64,000 bases of DNA from Protonemura montana (Eukaryota; Arthropoda; Insecta; Plecoptera; Nemouridae): NCBI GenBank assembly GCA_947568835.1, contig OX387603.1, positions 18,810,651 through 18,874,650 on the forward strand. The letters run 5' to 3'. The position numbers and the translations under genes are program-made. This document shows positions 6,184-63,478 of this stretch, in pieces; position 1 is the stretch's first letter, and every line of letters starts with the position of its first letter. The notes beneath the pieces were generated by a model. The model did no database searches and was not told the origin of the DNA. It was given only the letters and a program-made list of their open reading frames with translations.

Positions 6184-7352
6184 CTAGGTGCCTTCATGTT
6201 CAATGCTTATGTCAATAGTCTGAACCCTACTGCTATCTTGCGGCACCATTTCCAATTTCTCTGGTTCTGCATCCGGCATAATTATGCACATAAAATTCTT
6301 CCCAGACACTGTATCGCGAGGGTAAATAGTTACAGGCGTAAACTTTTCAACAGAACCCTCCACATAACCGCAAAGCTTTTTATACACATCAGGAAAGTGA
6401 CGTCGCAAGCTTACTCCCTTTTGTCGCAAGTGCCGTTGTATATTCGTGAAGCTGATTTCCCTGGCTCGTTGCGGGTCGACCGTTCCTTGCACGCCAGGTA
6501 GCGACGTCAAAATCAGCGTCTCCGGATTCTCCATATCGCGTGTAATATTTGGGGAAGTCCTCCGCGGTGGGACCGCTGGCGGCTGGGGCAGAACAGCGGT
6601 CAGAGACCGACATAAGCGCATTTTGGCGCAACGCGAGACAAGCTGCCGCTCCCATTTGACTGCGCCTGACGTCGGCACTTCGCTAACCACGCACACGGCC
6701 ACGTAGAGCACCAATCGCGTGTCTGGATTGTACGACTTGCACAGCCGGACCAGCTCGGAATAAAGCTCCGGACCCATCTCGTTCGGCAGCAGATCTGACC
6801 ACCGCACGTACGCTGGCTCTCCCAAGTCGAGGAAACCACGCGAAACAAACTGTTCAGCCAGTTCGGGACTTGAGAAAAAGCTTTTCACGGCACCTCTACC
6901 CTGAGCCAAGTAGCCTCGTCGTGCTAGCAACGAAATATGTTTCAAAGTGGCGGGATCTTCTTTGGCAGCTGCTAAAACCTGCCTACAAAGTGCTCCAACT
7001 CTCGAATGCAAGCAAGTTTTCCGGTGTCGTTCCCAGTGTGCTCGGCGACACTCTCGTGAGCAGTAGACGTGCGCGCAGTTGTGGCACGTCTTGAAGTTTC
7101 TACGTGCGTCTGCGACAGTCGCTGTGTTGGAACACTTCGAGTATCGGCATCGCACGAGTGGTTCGGGCTCGAGTGCGCCGACGATGTCAAAGGAGACACG
7201 GCGAGCGGCGCGGGCGTGGACAGCCACTGCCTTGCCGGGGTGGCGCAGCACTGGTTCACTGCCTTCGCTGCGCCGGCGGTGTGTGTCGCCCACGTAGTAT
7301 GGAGGTCGTTCAGTCGTCGCTGAAGTCGACCTCACACCGTCGCTAGCTGACT
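6184..7352 (-). CDS. AJM-like gene last exon: MYND-like zinc finger and conserved C-terminal domain
   Basis: A 1,169-nt terminal exon of about 389 residues ending at TAG (6186-6184). The Cys/His cluster encoded at about 7013-7149 has spacing C-x4-C-x15-C-x2-C-x4-C-x3-C-x7-H-x3-C, a MYND type with a wide first loop. MYND fingers are protein-protein interaction modules that bind Pro-rich partners. After it come LHSRVGALCRQVL, a KHISLLARRGYLAQGRGAV block, YVRWSDLLPNEMGPELYSEL and RLVLYVAVCVVSEVP, a compact alpha/beta-like domain of about 200 residues. A tail with NIQRHLRQKGVSLRRHFPDV and FTPVTIYPRDTVSGK follows. This is the most conserved-looking part of the gene and the basis of the AJM1 call. 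Confidence 0.88.
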
Positions 7353-10300
7353 CTGGAAGGAGAGGCGGAGGATGTTAAGATAGTAGTGGGAGCAGATGAA
7401 TACTAAGTTACCCGTTCTTCTCAGTTTTTACTTGTGGTATAATTTGGGTTGTCTAGGTGAATGATATGTCCTCTCACTTTCATTCTGTAGACCAGAGTTT
7501 CCTTATTTAATCCTAATTTACCCCCAACTAATCGTAATCATAATGAAGATCATTAACTAAAAGAGTGTAGAATAGTGTTTGATAGTGTTTGGATAGCGTT
7601 TGTCAGGTGTTTGAAAATTATATCATGGAATGATATGGAATGAAACATTGGCAGCTCAAATGGAAATTTAATTATAGAACCTTGAATGGAGACAATGGAA
7701 ATAGATTGAGTCTGACTTTATAGTGTAGGAAGGAAGTGTATCTAATGTTAACAATGCCCACTGGGTTTAATAGCGCTGGCATCAATTTGTTTTATCATGT
7801 GTATAATTAAATCAGGAATTTGTGCTATTGTCTTCGTAAAGAGCAGAAGCTCTAAGGCAGAAGTAAACTCAGTCATCTACAGTTATATTTTGCAATGCTG
7901 ATTTTCTGAATTTCAGTAGTTGAAGGTTATTTTGTGAGAAAAGCTGTGATATATCCATCTCCAGTCCAGGAAAAGTGGCTTATGACACAAGTGCGATGGA
8001 TGAGTTGGCTTATATTTTAGCTCTCAACCCCAAAAAGAGTGAACAAAAATAAAATAAATTTCTGCTTTTTTGGTTTCTACCTGGTATGTAGATAGTTGTA
8101 TAAAGAAATATGTGAAGATTTAGTAAAAGTCACCGATGATTAGCTCTGGAACATAACGCAAAAAACCGAAAAAAATCAAAACAAGCCACATGCAACCCTG
8201 ACGAAACTAACCTATGAATGAGACTGAAGAGGCTTTTCGAAACTTACACGGTCCTCCTACCTGCGAGGTCGGTGCGTATGTCCCCACAGCTACGTCGCGC
8301 ATGGGAGCGGCCGGGGGGCTGGAGTTGGGGCCGGCTGGGGCTGGAGACTGATGCTCCTCCGGGACTTGGGGACCGTGAGGTTGGGGGCAGGCCAAGCAAC
8401 GAGTCAAGAACGTCTTCGAGTGTGGTTGATCCTGGGCTTGGCTTGTTACGCACTTCAGTCACTTGCGTTATGCGGCGTAGTTCAGTGTCGACATTGTGGA
8501 GGAGGTCAAATTCGGCGTCTGGTTCGTAGTATTCGGTTTCGTCGTCAGTGCCTGAAATCAATGGGTGATTTCTTTAAACAGGTTTTAATGAAACATATTA
8601 TCTGCTGAGTGTGTTTTTAATACACACACCAGCTGCCAAAATGAAGATTTCACCTGAGACATTGGTTCTCAAAAAAACAGATACTTTAATAGTTGAGAAA
8701 GATTTTTTACTGAACCACATTCTTTAATTTAACTTTAAAAAGAAATTAAGTTTATTGCTAAGAAAAAATTGTTCAAACTTGGCAAAACAGTGAAAAACTA
8801 TTTTATAGCTTATGGCATCCATTGAAAATTCATAAATGTGGTTCTCATTTCCCAAGCTTTGAAATGAAACGAAAAGCCAAGAACGTCCTAAAAAGGGAAA
8901 GCTATCTAATAATTGAAACTCCCCAATGGAGTTAGTTGAAAATAGTTGGCATGTTACGCTGACATTATGTTAGTGTTAGAGCTTTGTTATACCCAGAAGC
9001 TACAAGCTGCTTGTTAAAAACTTTTCCAATAAATATTTTAGTAGAGTTAATTTTTAAGGGAACTGGTCTATGTGAAGGTGAAATTATCGGATTAATGATG
9101 AAACTCTTCATTTAGCATTCCGTGATTCGTTCACTAGAATAGAAAATGAGTTACTTGCCGTTGATCCACAACAGCTTCATGCCTGGAGGTAATTAATTAT
9201 TTTTTTACAAGCGAGGATATTTTGACGGTGGTGAATGTCAGTCAGCATGTTGGTCAGTTAGTTACGTCAATGATGCACTTCTGTGCACTCTCAACTTACC
9301 CTTGAAGCGGCTGGAGAAAAATAAAATTGCATAAATAGTGGGATGGTTTTGCTATCAGAACAGGGTGCGCTTGGCTGGAAACAAATCATAAAACAAGAAA
9401 TAAGTAAAAGAAAAAAAATCAGAGTATAAAAAATAAACATTTCGTGCATTTTTGACAACTTAATTTAGCTGATTGACCTGGAGATTTTCAGCACTGCCAC
9501 TGTCAATTTAAAAATTATCACGATCCACAATAGCCATGTCTCTCAAAAAGGATCATCCTTTTTTCATACCCTTCCTTTCAAAGAGCCTAAGAACTGATTA
9601 GAACCATCACCTCAACAACCTGGAAATCCTAATATCACCTTTATTGAACGTCCATACAATAGGACATTACGTGTGGATATCTGATCCTATACACCACAAC
9701 GGCGCCCATAGAATATTGCCGTAAATCTCCCATTGTGGACGCCAGTCTCCGAGCTATTTCCCAGTCCCGACGTCGCGACGGCGGCGCTCATACCGACGCC
9801 TTGTTCACAACAGCCGTTATAACTTTCTGAACTAAATTTCTGGAAAACTTTCGAACGAAAATATCTGCGGAATGTATAGTATAAGGTAACACAATTGCTC
9901 TTAGATTAAATTAATGTAATTCGTCTGTCACGTGTTGTATACGCTTAAAAAACTGCAAAGGTTTTAATTATAAGTGATTAGCTGCTCATTTTTTAGGTTT
10001 TTGCACATTCTTGTCCTCGTCGCTTTGGTTTCTTTTCTGACGGTCTCTTTATTCCGTATAGCCCTTGTTAAGGCACTTTAATTACTATGTCAAATTAATT
10101 ACGGAGCGACGGGTCGAGCACTTACTATTTCACCACTAATTAAAATAGATCGTTAACCAGAGCACCACCATGCGGAATATAAAATCGTAATTATTTTAAG
10201 AGCTAATCCATGATCCCTTAGTTTTATCTTAGGGTCTTAATATTTAGAAAGCATGTACTTTTAGGGATAAGCCCATGTCATGTTATCGTCCACATGAATT

Positions 10301-13300: not shown

Positions 13301-16300
13301 ACATCAACTCATGCTCACGTCAACAAGTACTCACCGTTGACCCGATGTGCAGCATTGAACCGCTGCTGTTGTTTACTATTATTCAGATCCAAGTAGAGGT
13401 CAGGCCCGCTCATAGCCGCTATGTCGTTGTTGATGGTTTTGTTGACGTCATTTGAAAGCGTTTGCGGAGTCTCCGGCACTTCGAGCGGCCGGCTGCCGAC
13501 GAAGGAGCTCTCGAGCCAACAGAGTCGTCCGCTACCTCGGGGGCTCGAAGACCGACTCACGTTTCCCCAGAGGGTGTCTCGTTCCCAGCGGGGGCTGCGG
13601 TTGGCGGGGGACTCGTCGGGATGCGTGATCTCACCCGAACCGTCGCGCACGCCGGACACGTAGTGGACGATCGCGGACGTCACTTCTTTTATCGAGGTAC
13701 GCACTTCAGATAGGTTCGGCACCTGAGGGCGATTGGAAACGGGTTAGATGAGGTTTTACTGCGATTGGGTTATAGCTAACACTGTGTTGCATGGTGAAAC
13801 CTGTTCAGTGTTCAATTTTCATTCCCAGACAAATTGTATTCCTAGTTAATTTCACTTAAGAAACAAATATAGAAAGTACTAATGTTTGATATAAAGCAAG
13901 TGAGCATTTCTTGTCTTGGGTGGTGACAGCTTGGATTGATATACCTATGTATTATTAATCTTGCATGAATTGCATGAGAGCTTTGAAGTGAAAGGCATTA
14001 TTTAGGCCATCAACTTGGCTTCGTCAGCTGCTGCTTCTGCAATTTTTCAGAAACATGTTATCTTCCTGTCAGTTTGCCATGAGTTAAAAAAGTATTTTCA
14101 AATTTAACCATGTAAGAAAATGGTTGATGGACAGAGTCTCACCAACTGCATAACAAATGAATTGAAAAAAAAACAAGCTACTTTTCTACTTTATGTCTGG
14201 ATATTAACAATCCGCAATATTATTTTATAGGAGCAAAGGATAAGTTAATTAATCCGATGCTTTACAGGGGGTTCTTCTAGAAAATTCAGTGTTATGCAAA
14301 CGTCTCAGGAGTGAACAAAAGTTCACCAGTGAGTGCTATTGTTTGCAAATTTCCATTATTTTCATTCCCTCTGACTGCACATTGTGTTAATTCAAATTTT
14401 TTTTCACTTGACTACACTTGAGCTTCCTTTTCCAAGTGTCCTCATTCACATCCCCTTTGAAGCTTTTCAAGTTTCAACATTTTGACATAGTGAAAAGGTC
14501 CAATCTCCCCCAAACATGTAGACTATCTTGATGCATTCAGCCTTGGGAAGTAAAGGCATTGCTTGGATTTCACACTTAGCAATCCCTTTGGCTAAAATCT
14601 GCCACCAAGGCACATGATTTCACACTACTGTCCTGACAGTTTTGCTCCAGACAGACTCTGACAAGTTAATCATTACATCTCCACATTCCCATCCAGAGTT
14701 ACTGCATTTCAAACACTGTCACTGCCAGCACATTTCGGAAAGTTCAACAGAGGTCATTAACATTAAACATCCAGAAACCCATTTTCTAAGATGATTCTAA
14801 AAATGGACAACACTTTTTCAAATTTCCTTGCAACTCCCTCTGGCACAAACAAGTACGTCTAGACATTGCACATAACATCAAAACTTGCCCTCATTAAAAT
14901 CCCATCAACTCGTCACCCTCCAACCAAGCCTTCATGAAGGGGGCGAAATAGCCACGCGATTCCCTCACATCAAATATGAACGATCCCATGCGGTCCTGCA
15001 CTTGATGCATATCCACAAACCCCCACGAACCGCACACATACCACCATCCAAATTACCTGTTGTTGCTGCTGAACGGGCACCGGTGGGGGAAGTATTCCCG
15101 CTGCCAACCGTTCGGCGGGCGTTCTTGGTCGGGAGAGTCGTTCCTGTGAACGCCATCCCAGATAGGGTTGTCGATAGTTGAAAGACGAGCGCGTCGAATT
15201 GCATGGCGAAGTGCTCGCCGACGTGCCACCGCTGTTCAGTCGACTGGTGCTCCATCTTGTGAACACGTGGGCGCTGGGTGTGGGACTGGGGCTCAGGAGG
15301 TGACCTGCAGAGTAACATGATGTGTCGTTAGAGTTGGTTGAATAAGTCATGTGCTGTTTTGTGTTGAAATGTCAAGATTTGAATGGGGGTGTGCTGTTAT
15401 CTGTGTCAAATGGTTGACTGTGTATGAGGGTAAATCACATACGTGAGAGATTTTGTATTTTGCGCTGTCAACGGGTTTCGTACCTCACGACTATCGGTAT
15501 CAAACTGCATAAACATGATTGAATTAGTTGACTAAAATTTAAATTGATTTCTATGCGGGAATTTATATGGGGCGTGAGATTATTCCGTAGTCTCCGTTCT
15601 TGAATACCACTCGAATACCCTGCAAAAGTAGGCAGAGACAAGTGAGTCGATAACGATCGAAAAGTGCTATCGGATTATGGTAATCAGATTTGACAGTAGG
15701 TGAACTCCATTGCCCGCGAAGCTCATATGCTGTAAAGGTTTCACGATTGTTATCTGGCGGCTATGAAAATGACCATGTATGCCGGTGAAAACGTGACTCT
15801 ATTGATGCCCCATGGGAGGCCATCATAATTTGTTTGACCGAAATCTTTGGGCCTTGCTCGGCGGAGCTAAATTCCTAACGTAGCCAAAAATAGACAGTCA
15901 TGGAAAGTGATTAACCATGAAATTTTATGCGTATCGATTAAATGTTGCTCTGGCTCGCATCATCCATTTGCTTCCGACCATTTATCCTTGCCAATGAAGA
16001 TGAATGGGAGATCTGGACTAGACACTTTTTTATAAACAATATTTTCTTTGAAGGAAACCAGAGTTTGTTTTATATTTTTATGTAGATTGCTAGAGCACTT
16101 ACCCCTTTATTGTAAAAAAAAAAAAAAAATTTTAAGCGCACTTTCCCCCGTCAAACATTCATAAGCACCAAAGTTTAACGTAAGCGTGTCCTCCAATTAT
16201 ATTTCCATGTTAACCAAAACAGTATTTTATTTAACAGTACGTAGCCTTCTTAACTATTAGCTCTTACGGCTAAATATTGTTAGAAGGCTGTGTCCGCCAC

Positions 16301-19300
16301 TTTTGTTGGTTGTGCTTATCCTAAAAAAAAAAAACTGAACAGGGTCAGAATTTTCGGTTCAGTTTTTATAGCAACGAACATTAGAACTTAGCATAGAACG
16401 AATACAAGAAAACTTCAATTTTAGTATTTCAATGCAGAAATTCCCCTCTGTTACAAGCGGACCTATCGATTCTATTTACCATTTCCTTGCGAAAGAAAAT
16501 CTAATGGAGCTGGGGGTAGGGGCGGTTTCCCCCGAGATGCCCCAAAGCCTACGACTAGAAGGGCAGAAGTGAATTTCTATTAAATGACTCCATTTATCCG
16601 CATGTATATTGCAAAGGGATGAAGAAATACCAAGTCCACGCGATCATCGATATATTATGATGTGTGCTATAAGCATTGCCAGTACTTTTATAGTGAAAAG
16701 GTGATTACCGTTAAAACCTTCAAGTTCGATAAAGTAGTTAGATATTTTCGTGAACGTCCAAGGTGAAATTTACGACTTTTTCGAACAAGTTTCCTGGAAA
16801 GCCGCCCCAAGTTTCTACCAAAGTTTCTACCAAAGCTCATGTCTGAAGGGGAGTCAAAACGACAACGTTAACCACAGCTTAGTTGACAGAGTGCAAGGTG
16901 AAGATCATAAATCGGGAAATGTTCGCTATTACGCGTTGAATATCGAAGTTTTTATGCACATTGGTTCCGTTGGATGCGCGATAAGTATGATTTTCTTCCT
17001 ACATTTGCATTGGAAAATAAAAGGGATCTTTAGTAACCATGGGTTAGTATTCTTAGGAATCAAGGTTTCAAAAATTTGACATAACTCTGAGAAAAAAACA
17101 CTCAATGCACGGGATTTTTATATAGCAGATCAATTTTCGAATATTCAATAACTGTTTTGTTCGTCGCTGATGACATTATAGTATCGGCAATCTTCACAAC
17201 CGTTACTTTTCCTAGCCGTAACAGCCCGTTAAATACATTCCATTCATGTCGCCTGAGAAAAGTGTGTGGTTAATTTCACTTGCAAATGGGTTGAATTTCT
17301 TGCACACTCAACCGCATAAATTTAGCCAAACAACCCAATTTAACTCAATCAACCTTTAGGGCTGAACCCTCCTCTACCCTATCACCCAATATCACTTAAA
17401 ATCACCCAATACACCCCAGAAAACCACTCACTTGTCGGACTCCTCGCCGCCGCTGACTGCGTGGACCCAAGACTTGACAACGAAGTGGTCTTCGAGCCCA
17501 ATCCTGGCCATCCTTGGTGCGTGGTCTCCCTTCCTTGCTGTGCAGCGTCCTTCCTCAGGAGGAACCCTTCGTGGCCCCGTGCGACAGTGGAGTTCTTGTA
17601 CCAGTCGGGCACGTTAAGCTTCTGGAGAGATCGCTGTACTCTTAGCTGGTGTTCGGACATGACGCGGTCGCCGCCCCCGCCGCCCTTCTGCAGCTCGTTT
17701 TCCGGCGGCTGAAACAGGGAAATAACAAACATGTTGATTGATCGGTCGTTTTGAAACTGAACTGGGCTTGTAACATTGCCTTGATTTAACGTGAGAATAT
17801 GCGACGAGAGACCAAGTACAATTGCAACCAATAGATATGACCTTGAAAAGTCGTTTTTATACGCTAGATGAAACTATGTTAGAGGCAAAATAATAATAAT
17901 AATAATAATAATAATAATTTTATTATCACAATTGATCGCATATATGTGATATTAGCTATGTCAATACAATACAATACAATAAAATACCAAGTCAATGAAA
18001 ACCAAGTCAAGTCAAAATGTTGACTGATGGCGCTGGTCGAACTGAGTCGTTGAATCTGTTTGGAACACCTACTTCAGTCAAGGTTTTCACTGAATTATTA
18101 TTTGGTTACCTATCCAACTGCTAGCTAAGTGCCGTGTTTTTTTAACCCGGAGTCAAAAACGAGGTATAGGTACTGCGTTACGTTTCTGACAAGCCAACCC
18201 GTTCGAAGTAACCATGCACTATGTAAGTTTTCCATTACAGAGCTGGCCGAAGTAATTGATCTCGGGGTGATTGCGATTGACACGTGGAAATATGAATAGG
18301 GCGTTGTCTAATCGTCATGGACGACGTCGAATGACATGATCGCTGGATTAACGGCTTCCTATTCCAATATTTTATTACATATTTTTATTTTACTTACGCT
18401 TTTTACCAAGGATACAATTATTTTCAAATTTCGAAACACATACGAGGACTTTTAGAAAACGTGACCTTGATAGATATCAGACACCATTTCGTAGCGACAG
18501 GTATATTTTTTACGATTATTGATATCAAACAAGGGTAAATATTCGACAGTCTTCTCTTAGTTTCGCCTGAACAGTTTACTTAGCAATTATCTTCACAAGG
18601 CAATGACCTACAATCATCACGATCGATAACGCCTAAAAGCAAATATCAAACACATCCGATAAATCTAACAAGAACACTGGAAAACCGAGTCATTTCGCAA
18701 AGCAACTACTGCAAGCCGTCTTACAACATCAAAGAAAATTGCGCTTTGCCTTTTACGATGCACTCTAGACTCTTACGAGTTCTGTCACTGGCTTCAGGTA
18801 CATAAATCATGAAGTGCCAATTCAACACCCGCTTCTATCTTTGAACCAATTACTGGTGAGGCATGCGCCTGCTTTTCACGACCTCTCAGCCATGTGAAAA
18901 TGACGAGCACGTTGCGCAAGATTTGATCGTGAACGATGGAAATGGAGGAAACGTCCATTAGCTGTATCAGGGCGCGGTATCGTGACGTCTTCCTCGGGGC
19001 TCTAGTTCTTTCCGACAAGTCAAATAACTCGAGATGATGTTCCGAGCAAATATACATTGAGAGCATGTGTACAAACCACGCATTTCGAAACGTTTTCAGA
19101 GATTGAGACGGGGAATTATTAAATAGGGTAATGGCTTTTGGGTCGGCTCCATGGAAAATGGTGCATGGCTTTCTGGAGCAATTGCAGTTCCCACACAGAA
19201 TGATAAATAAATGTGTGTTACTTTTTTAGTGGGGGGGTTAAATCTAGTGAAGTGGTGTGAATGAGCCAGTGTAAATTGACCCATATATCCATATGATTGA

Positions 19301-40300: not shown

Positions 40301-43300
40301 CTTTGTATTTTAAAAATGTGCAAGCAGTATTTTAAAAAGGGGGTGTCGAGGTTTGATCAATGAGATACGCAAGTTCAAGGTTGTGGAAATCAAGGTTAAC
40401 CAAAGCCAGCAAGATTAGTCCAAAGTCACGTAGAATCACATCAAAGCGAGTCTACAATATACCGCTTGACCGGAAAAGCAGCGTCTAGAAAAAAACTACC
40501 CTCAACGTATTTTTCCTTTTGCTCTACAACTTATGTAATGCCAAGGCCCAAGATGTTTTGTTTTACGAGCTATTAAAAGAATTTGTCTACCAATTATAGC
40601 TATATTGGGAATTATTTTGAAGACATAATTGGAACTTTGAAATCGCGACATAGGAATTAATAAAGGAAATTTCATTCATGAGTTGGTAGTAATTCTGATG
40701 GGGAGCAGTCCTTGTGCTGGATCGTCTCTCACAGGCTACATAGGGGAGGTCACTCACCGTCCGGAAGGTGTCACCGCACATACAGATGGTGACCAAGGGC
40801 GACGTGTCGAAGCAGGCAAAACTTGTCATTTGCTCATCATAAGTCCCCGGCAAAACACGAAGCCCGCACTGCTCTACGCCAATTGCACGAACCCGACAAA
40901 AACGCCGACAGAAAAAAAAGGTATCCCGGAAAATTCACAACGCGCAGCACAGCAGTCGTATTTTTTTTTTGCTCACTCCTACGTCCTCGTCCGAATCTAA
41001 ATTGGTAAACACATTGTGAGACCGACATTTTTTATTCACAAAAATCTTGCTTTTTCTCCATACCAACACCGTGCGGAGAGGTTTTGCATGTTTTATTTCC
41101 TTACCTAATTTTCAACGGCTATTTTTAGTTTAGTTGTAGAAGTCTGAATTCTATAAAAAGGATTTCAACCATGTAGTTCTGATCTGTGAAATCGACATCG
41201 GACCACCCAAAACGCGGCCCCTTAATTCGTGACGTAGCCACGATCCCCGATACTAATTTGAAGCAAGCTAATCGTATTATAGCTCAATTACACAACACAT
41301 ACTCTCTCACGTTACCTTTCCAGGGGGTTCGAAATTCAAAATGGCACAGCACTATGCCTTTTTGTGCTTTACCCATTTCCCAGGTTCGGTCGTAGGCGGG
41401 GAAAACCACTCCCCCCCCCCCCCCCCAACCCCCGCCACAAACACTTTCATCCCCAAGCGTTAATTGAGCACGCATTGGTGAGTTTATCAGATTTTCAATT
41501 CGCCGAACAGAAATAATTCAATATTAAAGAACATCGCCGACATTTGGAAAAACCTTTTTCAGCCCCCATGAAACCCAAAAAAGGTTTTAATTTACGAAAT
41601 TCGTACGGCCTGCCGTTCCTGTCATAATTTCATCGTTTTTTTTTCTGGTAGATTAATTTATAATTTTGTTACCATATGCGTATGGTGGCTGTAGGCATCT
41701 ACAAAGCAGTTACAAAATTTTGAAGCAAACAACAGGAATTTTTTTACTGCTTTTGTGGGCACATAAACCAAGCTGAGTTTAATTAACATATTGAGCATTT
41801 GTTTGAAATTCTCATTGAAATCAGCATGAAATTTGACCTGATATTTAAAGTAAAGACAGCTTCAGTTCAGTAGATAAACTAATTTATGCTTGTAAAAATC
41901 GTGTTCATATACAATATAATTATCCGATATTCATGTTAAATTACAGCCCCTACACATTGTCATAAAAATTTGCATACAAAAGGTTTGTTTAAATAACAAA
42001 TAACACCTACATAAGACGACTTACATAATAACACAGAACAAATCATAGTTCACATACCTACATTTTATTATTGTGCATTATTCAAGAATCTAGGTGTCAG
42101 CTCAAGTGTCAGAATACGGGATAGATATTCTTTCTTAGCATCGTCTTACAATATCAGGTACCTACATCGCAAGGATGTATTTTTCTTATATTCAAGTGCA
42201 ATCTAAAAGAAAAGTATTGCAGTATATAGCTCACCAAACTCCTCACTAGGAAGCTTTGATCATGTATGCAAAACGGCAAGAAAGACTTTGTATAGTTGCT
42301 AGCTTCTTCACATTTATAACGCAAACTGAATGTTATTTTTCCGCTCTTGAAGCCCAATCAAGCGGTTCACTCCTCGCGAGTGAAGAGACGAAACTCTACT
42401 ATTATTGTCAGCCCGATTTGACAGCGAAATCTTCTGAAAATCTACAATAACTGACCTAGTTTCCTTGCAGAGAGCTACATCAAATCGTGTGGAACAACGC
42501 AAGACAATGGTAGTGACTACCGAGAAGTGCTATTGCACAGTTTTTTGTTTTGGATGTTATGAATGGACGAAAATACAAGAGAAAAAAATTGAACTTGTGT
42601 TTTGGTTGTTCGTTATTCTGATACTGCCTTGAATCTCGTTCTCACAGTCACGGTCTAAATTTTGTGGTAATTTTTAGTGAATTAGAGTAATTAGAGTTGA
42701 AATTTTAAACAAATCAAGATATATATATATATATATCTTGAGCATGCAGTGAACCATAATTAATATTTATTGCAAACGTGGAATTTTCATTATTTTAGAG
42801 TATCCGATTTTTTTAGCTTTTGCATCCTTTTTTCATTCTGTAGCTATGACATAATTTTTGATCAAGGGAACACTAACTGCGAGATGTGGGACATATTTGA
42901 CAAATGAGCCGAAACAATCCTTTGGCAAAGGACATTGGCATACGCGCTTTAGCCACGCTTGACTTTTCCCATTATAAAGATGAAAACTCTGTCAAAGAGA
43001 TTGGTCTTTTTTCAAGATAAATAAATCAATTTTTCTCCATGCCAAACTTTCTGATGGTTCAAGACTCTTAAGATTTCTTCTAAGAGTTTCCATAACTAAA
43101 CCCGTGTTCACACAGCTGCCCCAACTTATTTTATTTCTCATGATTTTCGAAAATAATAAACGTCAAGTCTTTGTGACTCTTTCTAGTTCGCACAAAAATG
43201 TCACACTGAGTTATAACTAAGATTGAAACAAAAAAAAAACTTGTCGATTGCGCTTATTTGCGGTAAGAAACTTTTATCGCTGTCTAAGACAGCTGACAAA

Positions 43301-46300
43301 ACACATTTCCTCCCAATAACCTTACCGAAATGAAAAGTAAAGGAGGAACAGAATTCAGCACAAAAGATTCCGTATCAGTGACATAGCGAGAAACTCGATA
43401 CCCAAAATCAATACAGAGTAAACGCCCACATTACCGCTTTGAAGACATCATATGACAATTCTCATTCTGCTCACTAAAAAAAAAACTAGAACGTTGAATT
43501 TCCCTGATGCAGAATACTTTTATAACCGAGTTTGTACAACGAAGGTGTCGTATCGCTCTCCCCGATCAACGTTTATTCACAATCAAATTATGAGCGGTAT
43601 TGATCGCACTATTTGGAAGTGTCTACGTTCTGCCTCTTCGCTAATGGAAGCTGTGAGATCTGACCCATGACATAACAAAACGATACAATTCGCCAAAAGC
43701 TGATATACAAATCGGATTATCTCTCATGTTGAAGAAACAAATCCATAGCCGAGAAACTAATTTTTCGTTTACTGGCGCATAATTTACATACAAAAAAAAA
43801 TGTATTTCAGGGTTTTCTTGAAGCACTTTCAACTAACGCTATTTACTTTCCACTCTCAGTAAATAATTTCGCTGGCAAGCTTTTAGTAAGAATTTGAACT
43901 TGATTTTTGTTTCCTTTAAAAGTAAAATAGTCAAGGTAAGTTTTTAAAATCAGATTTCCATGCAAAATGTACGTCGTATTTTAGCAGACGACCTTTTGCT
44001 GTCCACGCTATCGCAATTTGCCCGAGTAAAAAAGAAGAAAACATAATTTCTTGTCTTCCCATTTAGGAAGCTCTCTTGCACTAGTCTAGTTATTATTCAA
44101 TGGTAACGCGAGGCCTTCCTGATTACACCAAGTACATATATCACAGAAGACAAAGGACGAAACTATAGAGAAAAAAAAAACCATGTTAACTAAAAAATAA
44201 CAATTCTTATGCAGATTAGCACTGTAATAACCAAGGACCTATTAAGAAACTCGTTGAAATCCTCAAATATTAACACTATCCCGGAATAATTTTAATACGT
44301 TTCCGATTGACCATCCCATCCTCTAATATTAGAAAACCCATTTACGAAACCTCTCAACGCTTGGCTATTACCAGCAATGTCAATAGCTTCAGCACCAAAC
44401 GCCAAATCCAACAATTTCTCCGACCAACTATTGCATGTGACCGGTGTTACAGTGTCGTGTTTAACATCTACATAATGAGCAAACAATTCGGTGTATATAT
44501 ATATATATATATAAGTACAGTGAGCAAGACTTTAAATTGAACAAAAATTTACCTTTTCCATCGCAAAAATCATTGCAAATTGATTAAAAAATCCGTCGCG
44601 AATTAAAAAAAAAAACACTCTTTTTGAACCGCGTCACCACATATCACGTGATTACTCGAAAAACGCGGCGAGTACCAACACAAATTCAGAGCACAATAAC
44701 GAATTTACCGAAATAACGTGCAGAATGCACATGCACCGGTTCGCGCGACTCGCGTGTGCCTGTGGTGCAGGGGCGTCGCGACGCCGACGGCCGTTGGACG
44801 CTGGGCGGACTGGGCCACTGCGGCAGTATTGCTATGGGGCGCCGGGGTAACGGTGCGACGCGCATACCCTGCCCGTGTCGGGTCGGTCAATAACTACCCC
44901 GCGCGGCGCGCACAGTTTCGTTGGATGGTGGTGGTGCCGTTACGATTGGGGCTTGCATGACTTGCGATAGGCGAAGTCGCCCGATTAGGGACGTTGACGA
45001 TATCTTCATGTAGTTTTGGGAACTATTTCGGTTGGGAAATTCATTTTGTGACGTTTTGATTTCGTTTTAGTTTTTTTTCATGTTCACATACGGTATGCGC
45101 ATGTTTTTGCTGTCGCACACTTTTGGTTTGTGGGTTAGTTTAACCGATACCTCGATGCAGTATTGAGATCTTATCTAGTTTTTTGAAGTAATAGTTTAGG
45201 GGTTTATTTTGACGTCGTCTTAAGGTCTTTATACTGCTAATAATTTACTCGTAGATATAATTTTATGTTGGAACCTGTCTGGGGATTAATTCGAATTTCA
45301 CGGTTTAATTATCACTGTGAAATTGACCTCAGAGTCCTTTTTTAAATCAAATCTCATAATAAAAAGAAGAAAATTACACTTCCAGTTAGGTTAACTCCGT
45401 TTATAATGACCAAGGTTAAGAAACTGGAAACTCACCCTTCCTAACTCAAAAGACCCTTTAAGCCATTGTAAATACTAGAGCTACCCAACAAAACCACCAG
45501 TTATTAACGATGACCATAAACCATCTCCTGTTCATACAATCCCATCTTAATTCGTTACATATATAAGTAAGGATAGAGCTGTCGCGATAGCCAAGTATTC
45601 ACAGACTAGACACATGTTCCTAAAACTCCTCCTGATTCCGGAATACTCCTGGAGAATTCTACATTATGCAACGCATGACAGGAGAAGAGACCACGTGCTA
45701 ATGGACATGTCAATGTCTCCTCCCAATCTCTGCAAGATTTCGCCCACACAATCCGCTACAGGGTGTGGAGCTTTTCGGTCTGAGATTTCTCGCTTTAGTG
45801 GGTTGGGCTTTTTTTGCTTGAAAGCGACATGTGACATGACGCCTAGTCTCTTCGAGGTGTTAGTGATTGTACATGGCGTGAATGTTTCAACGTTGAATTT
45901 CGTTGTATGTCCATAGGTGATGAAAGAAATGTTATTTCATTCAGAAACTTGTCAAGATGATTGGGATCTGAATATCTTTATGTATCAGATGAAATTTGAT
46001 TGCGATTGGGTCAAACACACAGCAACGTTTCTGATTAAATAATTCGATTTGATTACATCTGTTCACTGATTTATCGTCCATGATCAATCCGATGAATGGA
46101 TCTGATTACGAAGGTCATGTTCTTCCATTAAATAAGATTATTTTTAGTGTTTTTTTTATTTATTTTTTTATTGTCGAGCTTGAAGAACTATCACTCATAA
46201 ATAAATTCATGTGTTAATATTGTTTTGTGTCACATTACCTACCACACCGACTTCGCAAAGAATGAATCAATACAAACCTCGAAATATTGATGTGAATGAG

Positions 46301-49300
46301 ATAACAACAATGCAATGTGTCCTCAAAATAAGATCACATTATTTGGCAATTTTACATTTAAACAGCGATTCTCTCTTTCAGATTATGGTTTCCTGTCCAC
46401 GTCTTTCCTTGCTAAGCACGTGCTGTGTTGAAAACGAGTGACATCAGCCATCAGAATCCAGTAAGTTACTCCAAAAAGCAAGTCGCTATAGGTTTTTGTG
46501 TCGGACATTTCCTGCAGCGAACGGTCCGTGTGGCCAGCACGTAAATTGCTTGTTGCCGTGAATATATAAAAACTAAGGTCAACACTGGCTGGCAGGCGGC
46601 ACATGGTAATGACTCCATGTTGGTCGCCAAGCGTGGTCAATTACTTAGGTTAGAAAGACTTGATCAAAAGCCATAAGTTACAACGCACTGCTACGGGTGA
46701 CCTACTGAATTCTTGTATGGCTTGGAGAAAAGATAAAATAGCGATTTAAAAACATGGTTTCAGATTGTGGATCAGGTATAACACGTGAAAATTGTCAAAC
46801 GACATTAAAATGGCGGGTTGATGAGTCATTTACAATCAATTTCGATTGATGAGGTAATGAGGTTGACAGAATGATATTTTAGTCGATGAAAGTAGGAAAA
46901 AAAAATCAAGACACTTTCTCATCGTCGGCATCGTAAATCCTCTTGAAACCTTTTGATTTGTATAATTACCTTACCTACTCTTCAGCGTGTTTAAAATTGA
47001 AAAATTAAAGAAAGTTCTCGCGTAAAGTCTCTCAATTTCTTTAGAGCATCATTTAATATTTAATTTCCGCCAAAATAAATACTATCATAGTTGACTTAGT
47101 TTATTTTTTTAATCACAAAAGCAGCGATTTTGAATTCGCCTTGCCCGTAGAACGTGTGGATTCTTAGCTGTAGAACGGGTGCGTTTCTACTTGCTATATT
47201 AGGTTGCACGTCTTGTTAGCTGAAAATAATGAGTTCGCCTGTATGGATATCGATTTGAACATCGGCCAAGAACAGCCAGCTCGAACGCATTACCAGCAAT
47301 TACTTATGAGTACTTAGTGAAACAAATTACATGAATGAAGATGCGACTCGATCAATGGCTTCCCAGTCACAATTCAAATGCCGATCTCGAGATTCCAAGC
47401 ACATTCTGTGCAGTAATGCATTGTCAAGAATGTATATCTACGTAGCACAAGGTTCTATACACTTCTTATGTCGGGAACATGGCTGAAGAAATTTAAATTT
47501 ACACATGGAAATTGCAAATATTTATGCAGCTGCATGAAGCAACAACACACAGCCGAGATTGAAGCGATGGTGGAAAATGTGCAGCGCTGCAACACTTCTG
47601 ATTTAATTGAGTTCATAATTAGTTATCTGAAGTAATCGACCGAACAGAGCAATTATTTATGTACATTTGTATAATGTCTCAGCGAAAATTTTAATGTTTA
47701 TTCAATAACGCAAGATAAGAAAAATGTATTAACATCGCGTATAAGCTAACGCTACAACCGAACATAACCTATAAATTAAATTATCCATTAGCCGTATAAA
47801 CGTAATTTTAATTGTGTTGACCATTTCTTCCTTCTAACACTAGCTTCTTTCAATACTTTTTATCATCGCAAATTACAAAAATAGCGGGCAGTTTTAATTT
47901 CTAATCAAACAGCATTTATAGAAATCAAATTACGTGAAACCGTTTTGTATCTTAGCTCAGCTTTAATCGCATTTCGCTCTTGTAAAGGGTGAAAATCGAT
48001 TCAAAGTTCGCCTCCCTCGCTCGCACGAAATTTATTCAACAAATTTCAAACGGGATGTGAGGCTGCACGCGCAGAAGATTCGATCCCACAGATGTGGCTA
48101 ACAAGGTGTGGTTCTTTCATTCGCTCGTGTAATAACTTCTCATCACAGATCAAGATCATCAAAAAAAGCTCTGCTTTTAATTTCTTGAAAATAAAAACAC
48201 ATAAAACCTATGCATAGAGGATCCACTGTGTTTGTTCAAAGCAGAACATTGGTTTCACAGAAAATCTGTTCCTGTCCTCGTCGCGAGGTTCTCTGACATG
48301 GTCTCCGCGGTGTCAGACGATTTTGATCCTGTGATGATCACAGAGCGTGCATTTGTTTGTCCAGCAAAGGCCAGGAAATGCAAGGGATTTGATCGCCTTG
48401 GTTCAGTTCACTGGCGGATGGGACTTTTAGTTATTCGTTCCACATTTCAAACGTCCAGTTCAATGAAAACCCAACGCTAGGACATAAACTGACATCTGGA
48501 AGCATATTATCAGTAGGATAAATGTTTGCAACACAATATGATGACTGACATAACTATGCTATTTAAATTTTAAAGCTCATGCTCTCGCAACCACATGCAC
48601 TTCCATGTTGTGTCGGCGTGCGTGACTAAATATTAATGTAGATAAGTAGAAATTCATGAGGGTGATTTATTTTTAGCTTATTCCGCTTGACACTTTCGGA
48701 TAGCGATATCTTTCACTCTCAATGTCATATGTAAACGGATAATGTAGGGACAGAAAAGGGTCCACTATTTTTAGTTTAAGTCGTCAAAGTGTTTGCGTCT
48801 ATTACTGGATCTAGCGTGATCGTACGTGAGCGCCCATCCCAGCAGAGGGCTTGTCGCCCTCTCCACTCATTAGATGAGAATGTCCCAGTTATTGAACTTA
48901 TCTCTTTCGTATTCAAACCGCATCAGCGAGCCAGCGACGTCAGTCAAATGACCAAAAACGATGTCAAACGCCCCTCGCATCCCGCCACAACTATTTACTA
49001 TTTGCGTCGGGTACCCGACAGTGCGTGGGTAGAGACGCTACCGTCGGCTGCACTCACAAACAGAATACCAAGTGTGTGGAAACAATGACACTCACCAGCA
49101 CTGCAGCCTGGTTCTCCTTGTCAAGCAGGAACTCCATGCTTTTGGCCCTGGCGTCGACGGAACCCCCGTGTCCGTGGGGGCGGTGCCCGGCGTTGGCGCC
49201 AGCCCCCGTCGGCGGTTTGAGCATCCCTGTCTGTTGATGTGCCCCATTGTGTATCGACAGTCCATGGTTCATGCCCAGGTTAAGCAAGCTTCTCGCCTTC

Positions 49301-50232
49301 TTCGGTGCTGCGACATTCGGCAGCGGCGGTCTCTGCGCGCTGACGGTGATGTCGGTGTCGAGATCAGTCTCTAGCAACCCTGTGGGATGCTGGCCGTACT
49401 TCGGATCGATAGACGACGCCTTGCCGTTGACCAGCGCCGACATGCTACTACTACTGTCGCCGAGCGGCGTCGGCCGTCGATGCTGCCCCTGCGACGGCTG
49501 CAATACGGCGAGCGCGCGTCGCGACGGCGGCGCCGGCGCCTTGCTGCTGGCGCCGACAACGCGGGGTGGCATCGGTGGCAGCGGTGGCTTGCTAGAGACC
49601 ATGACGGCGGGGGCGGCGTCGACCGCGGCGTCGCCCGGACCAGGGTGCAAGGAGATGATGGTCACGTCTTCGTACTCGTTGTATTGTGCAGGTTTTTTGG
49701 CGATTTTCGGCTTCTTTGACGACGGCTCTGCCTTCTTTTTCTCTTCCTTCTTGACATCGTGGCGCCTACGGAACGAGAACCGCTGAAAGAAGCCCCCGAA
49801 CCGACTGGAAGCAGGCTTCTTGGTGGCTGCCGTAGTCTCTAAGCTTTCACCCGACCTCACGTGCTGCGCGTCCATGGTCGATGGATTGACGCTGCCGACT
49901 GCCGCCGCCTCATTTGGATTGACGCTCGCCTCGTGGACCACGTGACCGCTGCTGGGAGTGGGCGGAACTGGTTGTGTTGCCATTGTGTTGCCTCCTGCAC
50001 TATCGGCGCCACGGCCGACAACAACAACAGACCCCTCGGCTGGCGCGGGCTCGCTCATGACCGGCCGCTCCAGCTGATGTCCCACTTCCCTTGGCACTAT
50101 CTCGACTATTCGCACGATCTCTATCATCTCCTCGGCCTGACGTATCGACTTCTCTTCGATGCGATCAGCTTCTTCGTCTGTATCCTCTTCCGTGTCTTCG
50201 TCCTCTTCGTCCTCTTCGTCCTCTGTCTCCTC

Positions 50233-50264
<32 letters not shown>

Positions 50265-53200
50265 GGTGGTCTTCCGGCACCTCTTCGGCGACGTCCTCTT
50301 CGAACTCGTGCCCGTACGTGTCGTCCTCCAGCTCCTCTTCGCTGTAACTCTCGCGCCAACTGACTTCACTGACCACGGGACAGAAGTGCACTCCCTTGGC
50401 GCCCGTCGACGGCAGCGGCGTTAGACTCTTCGAGGTCGCTTCCCTGTCGAGCTCGTCTTCATCGACGCTGAAGTGTTTCAGCGGCACGCGGTTCAGAGAT
50501 AGCTGCGACTGTTGCTTCTGCTCGTTCTGAAGAAAGTCGCCTCCGTAGTTGAGATTAGGGGTGCTCACCACCGGCAAGCGATTGGCCATCGTGAAAGGAT
50601 TGAATATCGTGACACTGTCCTCGAAAACTACCTTGTCGTGGACGACGACGTCATCATGGTCGACGATGATGTCGATGATTTCCGGCACGGGCAGGCTAAC
50701 TTTGGCTCCAGGGGTGTGCGTCGTGACACTCCGAACTGGCTGGCCAAAGCTCACTGACTTGGCCGTCGACGTCTCGCCGAGTCGCGCCGCGAATCCGCTG
50801 AGATCGTCGTCGAGTTCTCCTTCTTCCCGGCACGAGTACAGGAGTGTGGCGAGATTCGGGGCGCTTTGCCAACAGCTGTTGTTAAATTTAGACTCTTCCT
50901 CACCCCACCCACCGCCGCCGCCACGTCTCTCTACGTACTCGGTATCCGTCGGTAATTTTAGCGACTTTGACGACGCCAGTACAATGTTTTCACCTTCCTC
51001 CGAATCGCCGCTGCTACTTCCGCTGGAGTAGTACGACGAGCACGAGTCTTCGTCTTCGATGATTGTTGCGCTCCTGAGGCGCCCGTGCAGGGACGACAGC
51101 TTGGGGATGTGATCGCCGAACCCGCTGTCCTCGCTCAAGTTCTCCGCGGACCGCTGGGGCTTCGCCTCCTTTATCACTGGCTCGACTTTAACTGTCACAT
51201 CCTCATTGCTGCACTGCAGCGTCAACTCCGATGTCATCACTTTGTCCTCCTCCCCACCCAGCTTGCTCAAATCGGCCGTCGCCACGACCAGGGACTTGTC
51301 GAACGAATCGAACGCGTCGTACTGCGTGAGCACGAAGTCGTCGTTGTTCAAACTTTGCGATAGCTCGACCAGTGACACGTGCTGGTGCTGTTGCTGCAGG
51401 ATGTTAAGGCTGTCGAAGCTGCGGTATGAGCGAATGCGGCTGTTCTGCGACCGGAAACTGCCCTTGGAAGACCACGACGAGTGGAGCATCGTGTCGTCTG
51501 ACGAGGCGTCGTCGTCGTCGCTGCTCGTCGAGTCCTCACCGGGGAGCTCGTCCAGGCTGTCCGGAGATCCGGAAAAGCGCCATCGGTTCGACTCCAGCGA
51601 GTCGAAGCTAAACGTCGTGTCCAGCTGCTGGGGATTTGACCCTTCGAACGGGTCAGAGGTCGCCGACGTGTGGAAGATATTTTCGCAATGTTTCTCGAGG
51701 TTCTCGAATTGGAGCAAACTCGAGGAACGCGACGAGAGGCTCGCCGCGTCCTCGTATTCGTCTTCGTCGTCGTCTTCGCCGTCATCGGTTCGACGGCGTC
51801 GTTTTTTTGGCACTGCCAAGTCTCGTTCGGAGCCGCTCCATTCTCTAGCGTCATCCTCGCCGCACAAACCTGAAACATTCCAGAGAAATCCGCCTTTAAG
51901 CCGCAATCGATTTATTATCACCCTAGGAATTTACTAGGAATTTATTTGGGGTTACAAATGGACTTGTTTGTCCCAACTCTATTATTGTCTTCCGCCCCTT
52001 CGCTGTTGCGGTGCCCCTTGCTAAACAATCTCGCCAAACATTGAGTTACTACAGCGAGTGGGTACTACTACGTTATTATACCCTCCTAGTCGAATGGGTG
52101 GTAGTTGACATAGCCAATAACCGACTTCCGGCTATCATTATTACGACTTGATTGTCGCTGCACGATCCGTACAACGCAGACAATTTGTGCATCCTATACG
52201 CGTCGCATCGCTGTCGATAAGTTTATAAATCACTCCGCTCGGTTTCAATGGCGTCCCTGCCTCAAGACGCGGTGAACACGGATTCAAAGTCTGGTCGTGG
52301 CGCTCAAAACTTATATCGTGCCTTACAAGTTTAAACGCGAAAACAGTTAATTATTTCCAGATCTGATAATAACACGACAAGAGTGATTTGTTGTGTACTG
52401 TGATAGTGTTACGAATTTAGTGACTACCGCCGCTATTGCGTGCGTGTGAAAACGGACAAATTAATTTGAATTTCCCTTTGAATATTTCAGTACCAGTTGG
52501 TATTTTCATAGCTATGTGTGCATGGATTTTTCTTTTACTATCATTGCTCACATTGGTCTTCTAGCTAGATCGCGGTTGTAATTCGTGCATCACATGGTTT
52601 ATTTCAGTCGTGAAGCTACTGTTTTTTTTTTTAACTGGTGCAGCAGTGCGTCTGAAATGAATTGAAGGGTCATTCCGCTTCATCTTCTCCCTCTTTTCTC
52701 AGTGTCTATGTCTTTCTATCTGTATTTATACTGGTACCATATGAGGTGCACACAGATGTTCACTGCAGTGTGGGAGTGGAAGAGTCTGACGAGTAAGAAT
52801 TTTGTTCCTGTTTCATGCGAACTTGCCCCAAGAAGAGGTCACGGAACTTAACGCCTCTAACTTCTTGGCGAAACTCGACACGGATTGTTAGAAAGAGATA
52901 AATAACGAGACTAGCGAGTCTTATCCAAGTCTGAGAGCTTTTTTGGATTCCACATTCCGAGGGGGTGTAGATTGCGGTATACCTTAAGGCTTAAACCCTG
53001 ACCCTTTGCGGAATGCGGAATGCCAAGGCACGGAAAATCAATGACAGGTACAAAATTTTAATATCTGTGCACAACGGGCCGTTTTGAATTCCCAATTGCT
53101 GGACGTAAACCGTTAAGTTTACTTCCTGACTAACTATAAAACGAATGTGTGATCGGAAACCACTCTAAATTTAATATACCAATTCTCCTGTTAGTTGCAT

Positions 53201-56200
53201 TTAACCTAACATAAAAGAAATCAAACTAGTTAACAGGTGGTTTTTTAATTTTTATTTCCTAGCACGGGCATTCCCGCTTAAATCATGGCACCTCCACTAC
53301 AACCCCCGCTTTAAACCAGGCACCTCCATATCCCCATGAAAATCAGGCACCAAAAGTCAACCAACACAACTCAACGCCTCCCTATTAATTAAAAATCCAT
53401 AAAAGAGGACAGCCGCATCTTATTTGTGAACCATCAATTACGATTGAAATGAACTCGGTCGGTTGCCTTTGAAAGTTGGCGGACTAGGCCATTAGCTTTC
53501 CTAGTCACGTACCGTTATCACGAGGGACATGAATCACACTTTCGGTGTCCGAATCGCTATCGGGCCATCCGGCGTGTCCGGATCTGTCAGACTCGCTCTG
53601 AAGATCATCGGACGTCTCCTCCAAGATCGTCTCGAGGAAAATGAACGGCGACTGTTGCGTTCCGTTGAGCATAGCAGCGCCATCTGTCGAGCAAGAATAG
53701 TACTAGTTAGTCGATGCGTAAATCGCTGTAGTAGACTGCCACCTAGGTGCCAGTGTTGAAACTAAAATCTTTTATTTTGAGGTATTTTTCTGCAACTTTT
53801 TACCAAATTGCATGCTAACTGCTGGGAAATGTAATAATACGTGATCTTGTGATAGAAACTGTTACGGTAATACGAATAATTCTAGGCATTTGTGTGTGTA
53901 GTAAATGGATCTATAAATTCCTCACTCTCCGATATGAAATCTATTGGAATTAAAATTGGCAAAATAGTTATAAAAGTCACTAGGGAAAGAAGTCTTCGTT
54001 CTAGGGCAGGCGTGTCGTGAGATTACTAAACAAATAAAATGTAGAACTCGACTTGAGGTAGATGAACTGTGATTCACAGCGAAATTTTATAGAATTTTAG
54101 GAAAACGTAGGTACGAACAATAGAGTTCAAAATGTAAATGCAAGTTTTAAGACACGAGCAATTAAATTGCAGTGATGTAAGATAAGCTATTAACAAAACT
54201 CTCCTGAAACATTACCATGTAAGTCATATCGCTCTCGCAAATTAAAATCCCCTAATCCAAATCAAAGCGTACCATTTTTAAATCGTAATGAAATATTTCT
54301 CTAATCGATTAACTTTCGGTTCTGACACCATTTTCATTCAAATACCCCTACAGTACGTCCTACGGTACGTCCCAAAAACTCGGGTGCATGGATTTTGGAA
54401 GTTTTTCCAGTGGCAATTGTGAGGGTCTTTGTTCGAATCGTGTTCATCTCGTCAGGTGTCAACATTTCAGCTCGTTTTGATTTTTGACCATCTAAGCTGA
54501 GCTGTCAACTCCCACACCTACTCTCTCCCTTTCCCAACAGGTAAACACAAGAAGTATAATTGCAATTAAATGCAATCAATTCTGACAGCGAATATTTATA
54601 AATGCACAAATCGATGCACCATAGTTTTTTAGATACACTATATAACGCAACAAAATAAAAATCATTTAAAATCTGCACATGCAATTGCAAAATGGCAAAT
54701 GCATAACAACGGAGATCTTGGGCGTGAGCGCTAACAATATCTATAATAGCGATTAATCGTATTGACCCGGCAGTCGCTCAACACGTTGGTAATTGAATAT
54801 TGATGGGCACTCGTCCTAAATAGATATAGCATTCAGCATGCACGCCGCTCAGTCATCTGCATGCCAGAGCGTGCTGTCGATGCTGTCTGCGCTGTTTTGC
54901 CATTGTTTGTATTGGTGAAACGGGAGAATTAAGGTCGCCTCTAGATCCTGGGTCAAATACCACTTGAGCTTGACAAGCACAGAGAGTAAAGTGAAGGGAT
55001 TAACAGTTGTTTTATAGGTTTTGGTCGCGTGATTTGAGATTTGAATTACTTCACCTATGGGATTTTTACAGCAAAATCAATTTTGTTTCTTGATTTTTTT
55101 TTCTTTCAAAAGTTGATTATTTAAGCGGTTAATTGTTGAACCAATACCTTACTCGTCCATTTCCTGCAGTTCCTATAGATCCAGTTGCAAAAGGCAAAGA
55201 CAAAATCAACTAGTCTTTTATTCTTTCAGTTTTTTTTTCTGTGACACATTAACTAATAAACATACCAATAACAAACAATTAAGATCTGATTGGTTGTTGC
55301 CAAGCAAATATTAAATTAACGGGATGTTAAATTATTAACGAACCACTAAAATACCAGATTTTCCCAGGAGCGAAAGAGATGTTTTTCTAAGGTTAAGGTG
55401 GTTCGGTTACCGCCGTATGCCTGGGACTACACCACTGGTTGTTTGAAATAACAATGCAAAGTCAAATTTATTTAAATATCAAATATTTAGGAAATTTAGC
55501 TTATTTCCGTTGGTTTCAAAGTCAAGTGCGTGGGCGAAGGTCTTTCAGATTTTGATTTCCCAGCGTTTCTGTTTTGAATACTCCTGTTTGCTTCAAATAT
55601 GTTTGATGTAAGTACATGATTTTTTCGTCTTAAAAATAGCACGTGAGTTGAATTATTTTACATGCCAATGTTTAATTCATAATAACGGAACTGTTCAAGT
55701 GTTTGTTTAGATATTCCGTGTGCATGGCGTGCACATAAACGATGCACATGCAAATTTTGGTCACTTCAGGTTCCGTGGTGTTTTGTGATTATGAAATATT
55801 TGGAAGTAAGAAATGCCGCGTTATTTTGGGGACAGTTCACATTTTTGTCACAAATTATTTCCGTTCACAGAAATATTATTGTTTCAGGTTAATTCGTTTA
55901 AACAAACATATTTTCACAGTCGGAAAAAATCTAAAAATCTATAAAAATAATTGCATTGAACTAAATATTGCCTAACGGTACACCATGCCTGTGACAGAGC
56001 TGCCCTGTGACCTGCAGTGTAACGGCCCATTGTCAGCGGTGCATCAATTGCAACGAGAAAATACATGCAATTAATTATATTTTTTCGTCTAATCACAAAA
56101 CAAGTTCAACTTTCAGCTTGACTAGGAATTGAGCGTCGAGTTAGAAATCACAGATTTCATGCTGGATTTACAACGGTCTCGGTATCTTGGAATTTGGAAT

Positions 56201-62616: not shown

Positions 62617-62988
62617 AGCACTGGTCTAATGGCGTTGGTGAATGAGGATGATGATGAACCTAACCAAGCCTAGAAGGGAGGAGGGGAAACCCGGTGCTGG
62701 CACGTAGCCTACTCCTGGCGAAGAGCACGAAGAGGACCACCGGTTTAGCGTCCGTTCCGAAGGACGGTACAACTCGAACAGCAGGATTCCTCCACAAATC
62801 CATGCTGTCGAGAGGTTGATAAACAAGGCGAATGAAGTTGCTGTACTAACTTCCATCCTTTCAACCTCTCTCCCGAACAGAACTGGTCATGTGTATGATG
62901 GTCACCCATCCAAAACCTAACTCAGCGCAGTGTTGCTTAACTTCGGTGGTCTCATGAGAACCGGTGTTTCCAACACACCAAACCGTTC
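62617..62988 (-). mobile_element. 5S-rRNA-derived SINE-like element, copy A
   Basis: Read on the minus strand, the head (62988 to about 62890) matches the central part of 5S rRNA: ACACCGGTTCTCATGAGACC, then CACCGAAGTTAAGCAACACTG (box A, about 62928-62948), then GGATGGGTGACC (box C, about 62900-62911). The body ends at CAGCACTGGTCTAATGGC (62617-62634). It is 372 bp, the same length as copy B. The arrangement fits the 5S-derived (SINE3-type) class. Confidence 0.75.
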
Positions 62989-63106
62989 TATATTTGCTGA
63001 TGCTTTCCAATATTTCTCTCACGGTTTTTTTGTTTGCTATTTCCTTGCTGCTAGGCACAATCCAAGCAGCACGTTTATGATTTTGTTGTTCCTAAATTTA
63101 AACACC

Positions 63107-63478
63107 GAACGGTTTTGCGTGTTGGAAACACCGGTTCTCATGAGATCATCGAAGTTAAGCAACACTGCTCTGAGTCAGGTATTAGATTGGTGACCATCAT
63201 TCACATGACCAGTTCTGTTCGAGAGAGAGGTTGGAGGGATGAAAGTTAGCACAGCAACTTCATTCGCCTTGCTTATCAACCTCTCGACAGCATGGATTTG
63301 TGAAGGAATCCTGCTGTTCGAGTTGTACCGTCCTTCAGAAGGGCCGTTAAGCCGGTATTTAGACAGGAGTAGGCTACTTGTCAGCACTGGTTTTCCCCTC
63401 CTTTCTCCTAGGCTAGATAACGTTCTTCTTCACTCTCATGCTCATCCACTCATTTACCAATGCCATTAGACCAGTGCT
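63107..63478 (+). mobile_element. 5S-rRNA-derived SINE-like element, copy B (inverted)
   Basis: The plus-strand counterpart of copy A: ACACCGGTTCTCATGAGATC, GAAGTTAAGCAACACTG (box A, about 63151-63167), a more diverged box C (TTAGATTGGTGACC at 63182-63195), then the same body ending GCCATTAGACCAGTGC. With copy A it forms a head-to-head inverted repeat around a 118-bp spacer (62989-63106). Confidence 0.75.

Follow-up and report, generated by a model that had tools for sequence, protein, structure and literature searches.

An AJM1-like gene of the stonefly Protonemura montana with a probable internal first exon encoding a putatively lipid-anchored head

The 64,000-nucleotide stretch of Protonemura montana DNA analyzed here (GCA_947568835.1, contig OX387603.1, positions 18,810,651 to 18,874,650 of the forward strand; hereafter, the window) contains on its minus strand a gene in which five exons are joined through GT-AG introns into a common C-terminal tail of 790 residues. 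A long coding exon lies far upstream of this tail, and the intron that separates the two harbors several ATG-bearing open stretches that might serve as alternative first exons. The features on which the analysis is based are the following (a slash marks the splice site in the sequences given):

6184..7352, minus strand: last coding exon (e6), from splice sites and open frame, with a MYND-type finger and the AJM1-like C-terminal region
8261..8551, minus strand: coding exon e5, from splice sites and open frame
13335..13722, minus strand: coding exon e4, whose acceptor is also phase 0, so that first exons could join here too
15057..15304, minus strand: coding exon e3, from splice sites and open frame
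17432..17708, minus strand: coding exon e2, carrying the common phase-0 acceptor at 17708
30571..30702, minus strand: candidate first exon C, 44 aa, donor TTG/GTGAGT, single copy
33611..33919, minus strand: coding part of the proposed first exon B, 103 aa (MGSNSSKK...), donor ATT/GTAAGT
33920..34222, minus strand: probable 5' UTR of B, the upstream part of a GC-rich block (34222-33617) within the CpG peak 33601-34250
40758..40829, minus strand: candidate first exon D, 24 aa, donor ACG/GTGAGT
44553..44573, minus strand: candidate first exon E, added in this work, MIFAMEK/GTAAAT, phase 0, donor 8.35 bits, single copy
44733..44984, minus strand: GC- and CpG-rich block upstream of E and its possible promoter (block gain 42.7)
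49096..51869, minus strand: long coding exon A, phase-0 donor at 49096 (CTG/GTGAGT)
53513..53683, minus strand: probably a coding exon internal to the long form (U); its phase-1 donor matches the acceptor at 51869

Exons e2 to e6 all begin at AG acceptors and, with the exception of e6, which holds the stop codon at 6184, end in GT donors; their phases leave a single frame open throughout. The 790 residues of this frame agree with the length of the common C-terminal part in a preliminary description of the locus. The acceptor at 17708 reads TTGTTATTTCCCTGTTTCAG/CC; it is not the sole acceptor to which a phase-0 first exon could be joined, as had been supposed, since the acceptor at 13722 is likewise phase 0. 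A possible alternative phase-0 donor is also found within e4, at 13561 (minus strand, AAC/GTGAGT, 7.8 bits). Downstream of the gene, an open frame at 1122-772 (minus strand) resembles, by eye, a fragment of a trypsin-type serine protease.

AJM1-type proteins organize cell junctions. The single Pfam domain found in the gene product is zf-MYND, with scores of 22.5 and 22.4 bits against a curated cut-off of 22.7, and e6 can be aligned over 312 columns with a stretch of human AJM1 (C9orf172), 114 of which (37%) are identical. The letters of that human stretch are presumed to be right, and membership in the AJM1 family holds only insofar as they are. As far as could be tested, this sub-cut-off finger and the alignment agree with the AJM-like identity proposed earlier, and the gene appears to encode an AJM1-type junction protein, the localization of which at junctions is predicted.

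The long form of the gene is led by exon A, preceded by exon U (53683-53513), which appears to be internal, with an incoming phase of 1. The two starts tried for this form, the ATG at 53672 and the ATG at 61293, yield products of 1,768 and 1,760 aa, respectively, instead of the 1,805 aa previously reported. An open stretch at 58308-58159 (minus strand), strongly periodic (period 3, z 6.5), repeats a SPRAGIF-like unit and is probably a tandem repeat. Close to the end of the window, two Rfam matches to 5S rRNA lie on opposite strands (62876-62991, minus, 57 bits; 63105-63223, plus, 47 bits).

The intron downstream of exon A spans 49095 to 17709, about 31.4 kb. It contains at 22264-25727 an element with 531-nt inverted repeats (97% complementary) that flank 2,402 nt and with a 177-codon open frame (24303-23770, minus strand). 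In comparisons with the insect's own genome (258 Mb, 34 contigs), the left arm of this element has at least 41 matches at 97-100% identity (40 of 195 candidates were scored) and at least 11 at the top score, this copy included; the element is recently active. A transposon origin was also considered for B, C and E and discarded, each being single copy in the genome.

Ahead of a single common acceptor, the gene presents several ATG-bearing exons whose donors share one phase. The ATG, open frame and GT donor attributed to B, C and D, as well as the donor at 49096, are all as first described, and the four donors are in phase 0. Joined at 17708, a junction that we infer for all of the short first exons, B, C and D run into the tail without an internal stop and would yield proteins of 893, 834 and 814 aa, respectively, the first two in agreement with the sizes originally given. 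Scored with a consensus matrix, the donor of the long exon reaches 10.6 bits and those of D, C and B 10.4, 8.4 and 6.35 bits; that of B, which has a T at -1, is the weakest and counts against this exon. The ranks of B, C, D and E for the drop in GC content at the donor (6, 18, 11 and 5, respectively, among 37 donors) are not decisive. A scan for core promoters, covering initiator-like sites near B and C, found no DPE matching any of the TCAGTY sites listed. A motif seemingly common to B and C (KRYxPxR) was dismissed because the likeness of the two heads is no better than that of shuffled sequences (p 0.455), and neither B nor C resembles U beyond its shuffles (p 0.15 and 0.945). By reading of the sequence, it also seems unlikely that B or C is inserted as a cassette exon between exon A and e2, since no in-frame xAG codon was seen ahead of the ATG of C and those preceding B have no pyrimidine tract.

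The preliminary description had argued that chance agreement of phase, start codon, open frame and donor was unlikely three times over. To this argument we can oppose the numbers of equally good candidates that this genome offers in 12 stretches of 10 kb read on both strands (240 kb, with some real exons inside). Candidates at least as long and as strong as B numbered 5 in all phases and 3 in phase 0; the corresponding counts were 19 and 9 for C, and 10 and 4 for D. Scaled to one 31.4-kb strand, a third of the all-phase counts corresponds to 0.22 B-like, 0.83 C-like and 0.44 D-like candidates, and the phase-0 counts alone to 0.39, 1.18 and 0.52. Markov sequence of the same length and of the composition of the intron is less generous, with a mean of 0.15-0.35 C-like candidates in phase 0 and a fraction of 0.02-0.07 of the runs reaching 103 aa in that phase. 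The counts refute the argument from chance, which is not upheld for C or D: with some 0.4-1.2 candidates of their kind expected per strand, splice-site grammar alone does not prove either of them. In one of the stretches (L009), a 304-codon open frame at 6974-7885 (minus strand) resembles in part, by eye, a Psq-type DNA-binding domain.

These same counts favor the reading that no short first exon is used and that the long form alone exists, as does codon choice, which offers no support to B or C. With a codon model trained on exons of the gene itself, B scores -1.8, C -0.3 and D +2.8 bits, a level that for B is matched by about 8% of the stop-free windows of the intron, and a test of synonymous codon choice with the same training set gives z values of -0.18, 0.19 and 2.00 (p 0.03 for D). 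Codon usage hence speaks against B and C and mildly for D. Against the chance reading stand the periodicity and composition of B, and on their account we regard it as unlikely. The three-base periodicity of B reaches a chi2 of 50.8, where the null averages 8.0, and none of 1500 shuffles attains that value. Among 99 stop-free windows of 103 codons, drawn from the intron and from the 12 stretches, not one reached a chi2 of 50 and a single one (in stretch L010) lay above B by z; two of the highest 103-codon windows are the frame of B itself and its antisense. In a 50-codon scan of the sense strand of the intron, the three windows with z of at least 4 all lie in B, and the four found on the antisense strand all overlap it. 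In amino-acid composition, B (z 2.89, p 0.003) lies among the known exons, 12 pieces of which score from 1.11 to 3.98, and above nine tenths of 47 null windows (90th percentile, 1.68); five other open candidates in the intron, B, C and D not counted, score between -0.09 and 0.56. By composition and periodicity, then, B reads as coding; by codon choice it does not.

The surroundings of B are in keeping with a first exon. A GC-rich block (34222-33617) stops 6 nt from its donor, a combination of fit and gain equaled at 4 of 407 control donors. Among the known donors of the gene, one of six (that of e2) lies within 8 nt of such an edge, so that this test is specific and insensitive. The block extends some 300 nt upstream of the ATG, where it resembles a 5' UTR, and the start codon has an A at -3 and a G at +4. 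The encoded head looks short, disordered and rich in Ser, Asp and Glu. Its first residues (MGSNSSKK) match the N-myristoylation motif, Met-Gly with a small or hydroxylated residue at position 6. A strict form of this start, MGxxx[ST][KR], occurs at 2 of the 4,362 ATGs scanned, that of B being among those scanned, and a looser form at 36 of them; judging from this motif, the B head probably carries an N-myristate beside its lysines.

Besides B, the notion that C and D, and possibly E, are all genuine alternative first exons driven by separate promoters draws on the fact that every candidate is in phase 0 and in frame. CpG content adds to it: the window has 14 CpG peaks, half of which fall on the gene's exons, and B, D (within the peak 40701-41050) and E (within 44501-45150) occupy three of the other seven. 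By composition (z 1.30, p 0.10), C is close to the middle of the known exons (median 1.33, 37 pieces) and surpasses nine tenths of 135 null windows (90th percentile, 1.14), and the 24 codons of D are periodic (p 0.007) as well as favored by codon choice. Against all of them being real, apart from the chance expectation given above, C lacks significant periodicity (p 0.18) and support from codon choice, has no GC edge at its donor, the nearest being 116 nt away, and falls in none of the CpG peaks listed. For D, composition is low (z -0.54), the frame continues past the donor, and over its whole 115 codons periodicity vanishes (p 0.16). The failure of C to show periodicity is weak evidence, since known exons of the gene often fail too (p 0.24 for e2, 0.58 for e3, 0.03 for e4, 0.04 for e5 and 0.11 for U). 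As for E, its seven-residue head joined in frame would give a 797-aa product. The CpG peak in which it lies has no long open frame and, with 41 CpG per 300 bp, is second in the window to the block of the long exon (47); this peak is not independent support for E, which was found by way of it. Taken singly, C is unproven and may be a first exon, with the odds somewhat against it; E is doubtful; and D, on evidence that is mixed and mostly weak, is improbable, as is the joint reality of all the candidates. Of the interchangeable N-termini first proposed, therefore, that of B is well supported by composition, periodicity and the edge of the GC-rich block, and those of C and D are not.

The coding signal of B is silent on the exon to which B is spliced, and nested genes are common. 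B might accordingly belong to a separate gene within the intron, with downstream exons of its own and never joined to the AJM1-like tail. Between 49095 and 17709, however, no other 50-codon window of the sense strand reaches a z of 4, although short exons would escape such a scan, and the phase of B fits 17708 on the strand of the gene itself; a nested gene is thus an improbable source of the signal. That the signal stems from a coding stretch of the plus strand is highly improbable, for although the antisense frame of B (33594-33971, plus strand) is open, periodic and of favorable composition (z 2.24), the sense frame surpasses it in composition and in periodicity from ATG to donor (chi2 of 50.8 versus 41.3 for the plus-strand window), and it is the sense strand that has the start context and, at the edge of the block, the donor.

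We therefore favor, with a probability of roughly two in three (0.68), a gene that makes one long scaffold-like form and has at least one promoter within its 31-kb intron, from which B is spliced as first exon to the common tail. Open frames, splice-site grammar, the coding signal of B and the common tail are its observed basis. In such a gene, transcription from the internal promoter would begin near 34.2 kb, and the first exon would comprise 103 codons preceded by a 5' UTR of some 300 nt, and would be spliced from 33611 into 17708 or possibly 13722. The B head would then stand in for the roughly 1,000-residue head of the long form, in front of the same 790-residue tail with its MYND-type finger; with the long scaffold absent, the putative N-myristate could anchor this tail to a membrane. 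Starts of a like kind may also exist at C, D and E, on which the proposed arrangement of B does not depend.

Genes of this general design have been described. The C. elegans ortholog of human AJM1, ajm-1, is a junction-protein gene with 13 isoforms, which have a common part and differing starts and vary by tissue and role; for isoforms b, c, d and f, a transmembrane segment is predicted at the N-terminus (PMC13015320). A change to a membrane-attached start is thus known in the AJM family. The common part of the worm protein is described as a coiled-coil domain (PMC13015320). In the stonefly gene, the common part is the tail of 790 residues that bears a MYND-type finger, and the candidate for membrane attachment is a myristoylation-type motif in place of a transmembrane segment. 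In flies, alternative first exons arising from alternative promoters have been documented by RNA-seq and RACE, for instance in odd-paired of Clogmia, again a single gene whose products differ at the N-terminus (PMC6783274). That gene is unrelated to the one reported here, the first exons of which we infer from sequence. The fly alternative first exons and the 13 worm isoforms make the proposed arrangement one of an ordinary, established kind. Among the matches listed in a literature search, none was a paper on the first exons of insect AJM1, which does not exclude that one exists.

With regard to the search for first exons, the locus indicates that matching phase, ATG and donor constitute weak evidence, and that three-base periodicity can single out a likely one. 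A wider reading, in which the same tail is delivered through at least four internal promoters (B, C, D and E, in addition to the long form), with B providing a lipid-anchored head and E leaving the tail nearly headless, seems improbable to us; were it true, cells would choose between a giant scaffold and small tails, either tethered to membranes or free, that might compete with the scaffold. Should B be in use, the soluble junction scaffold would gain a short lipid-anchored form, through an exact junction that is easy to test. Such a form would parallel the membrane-spanning isoforms of the worm (PMC13015320), reached by a different route.
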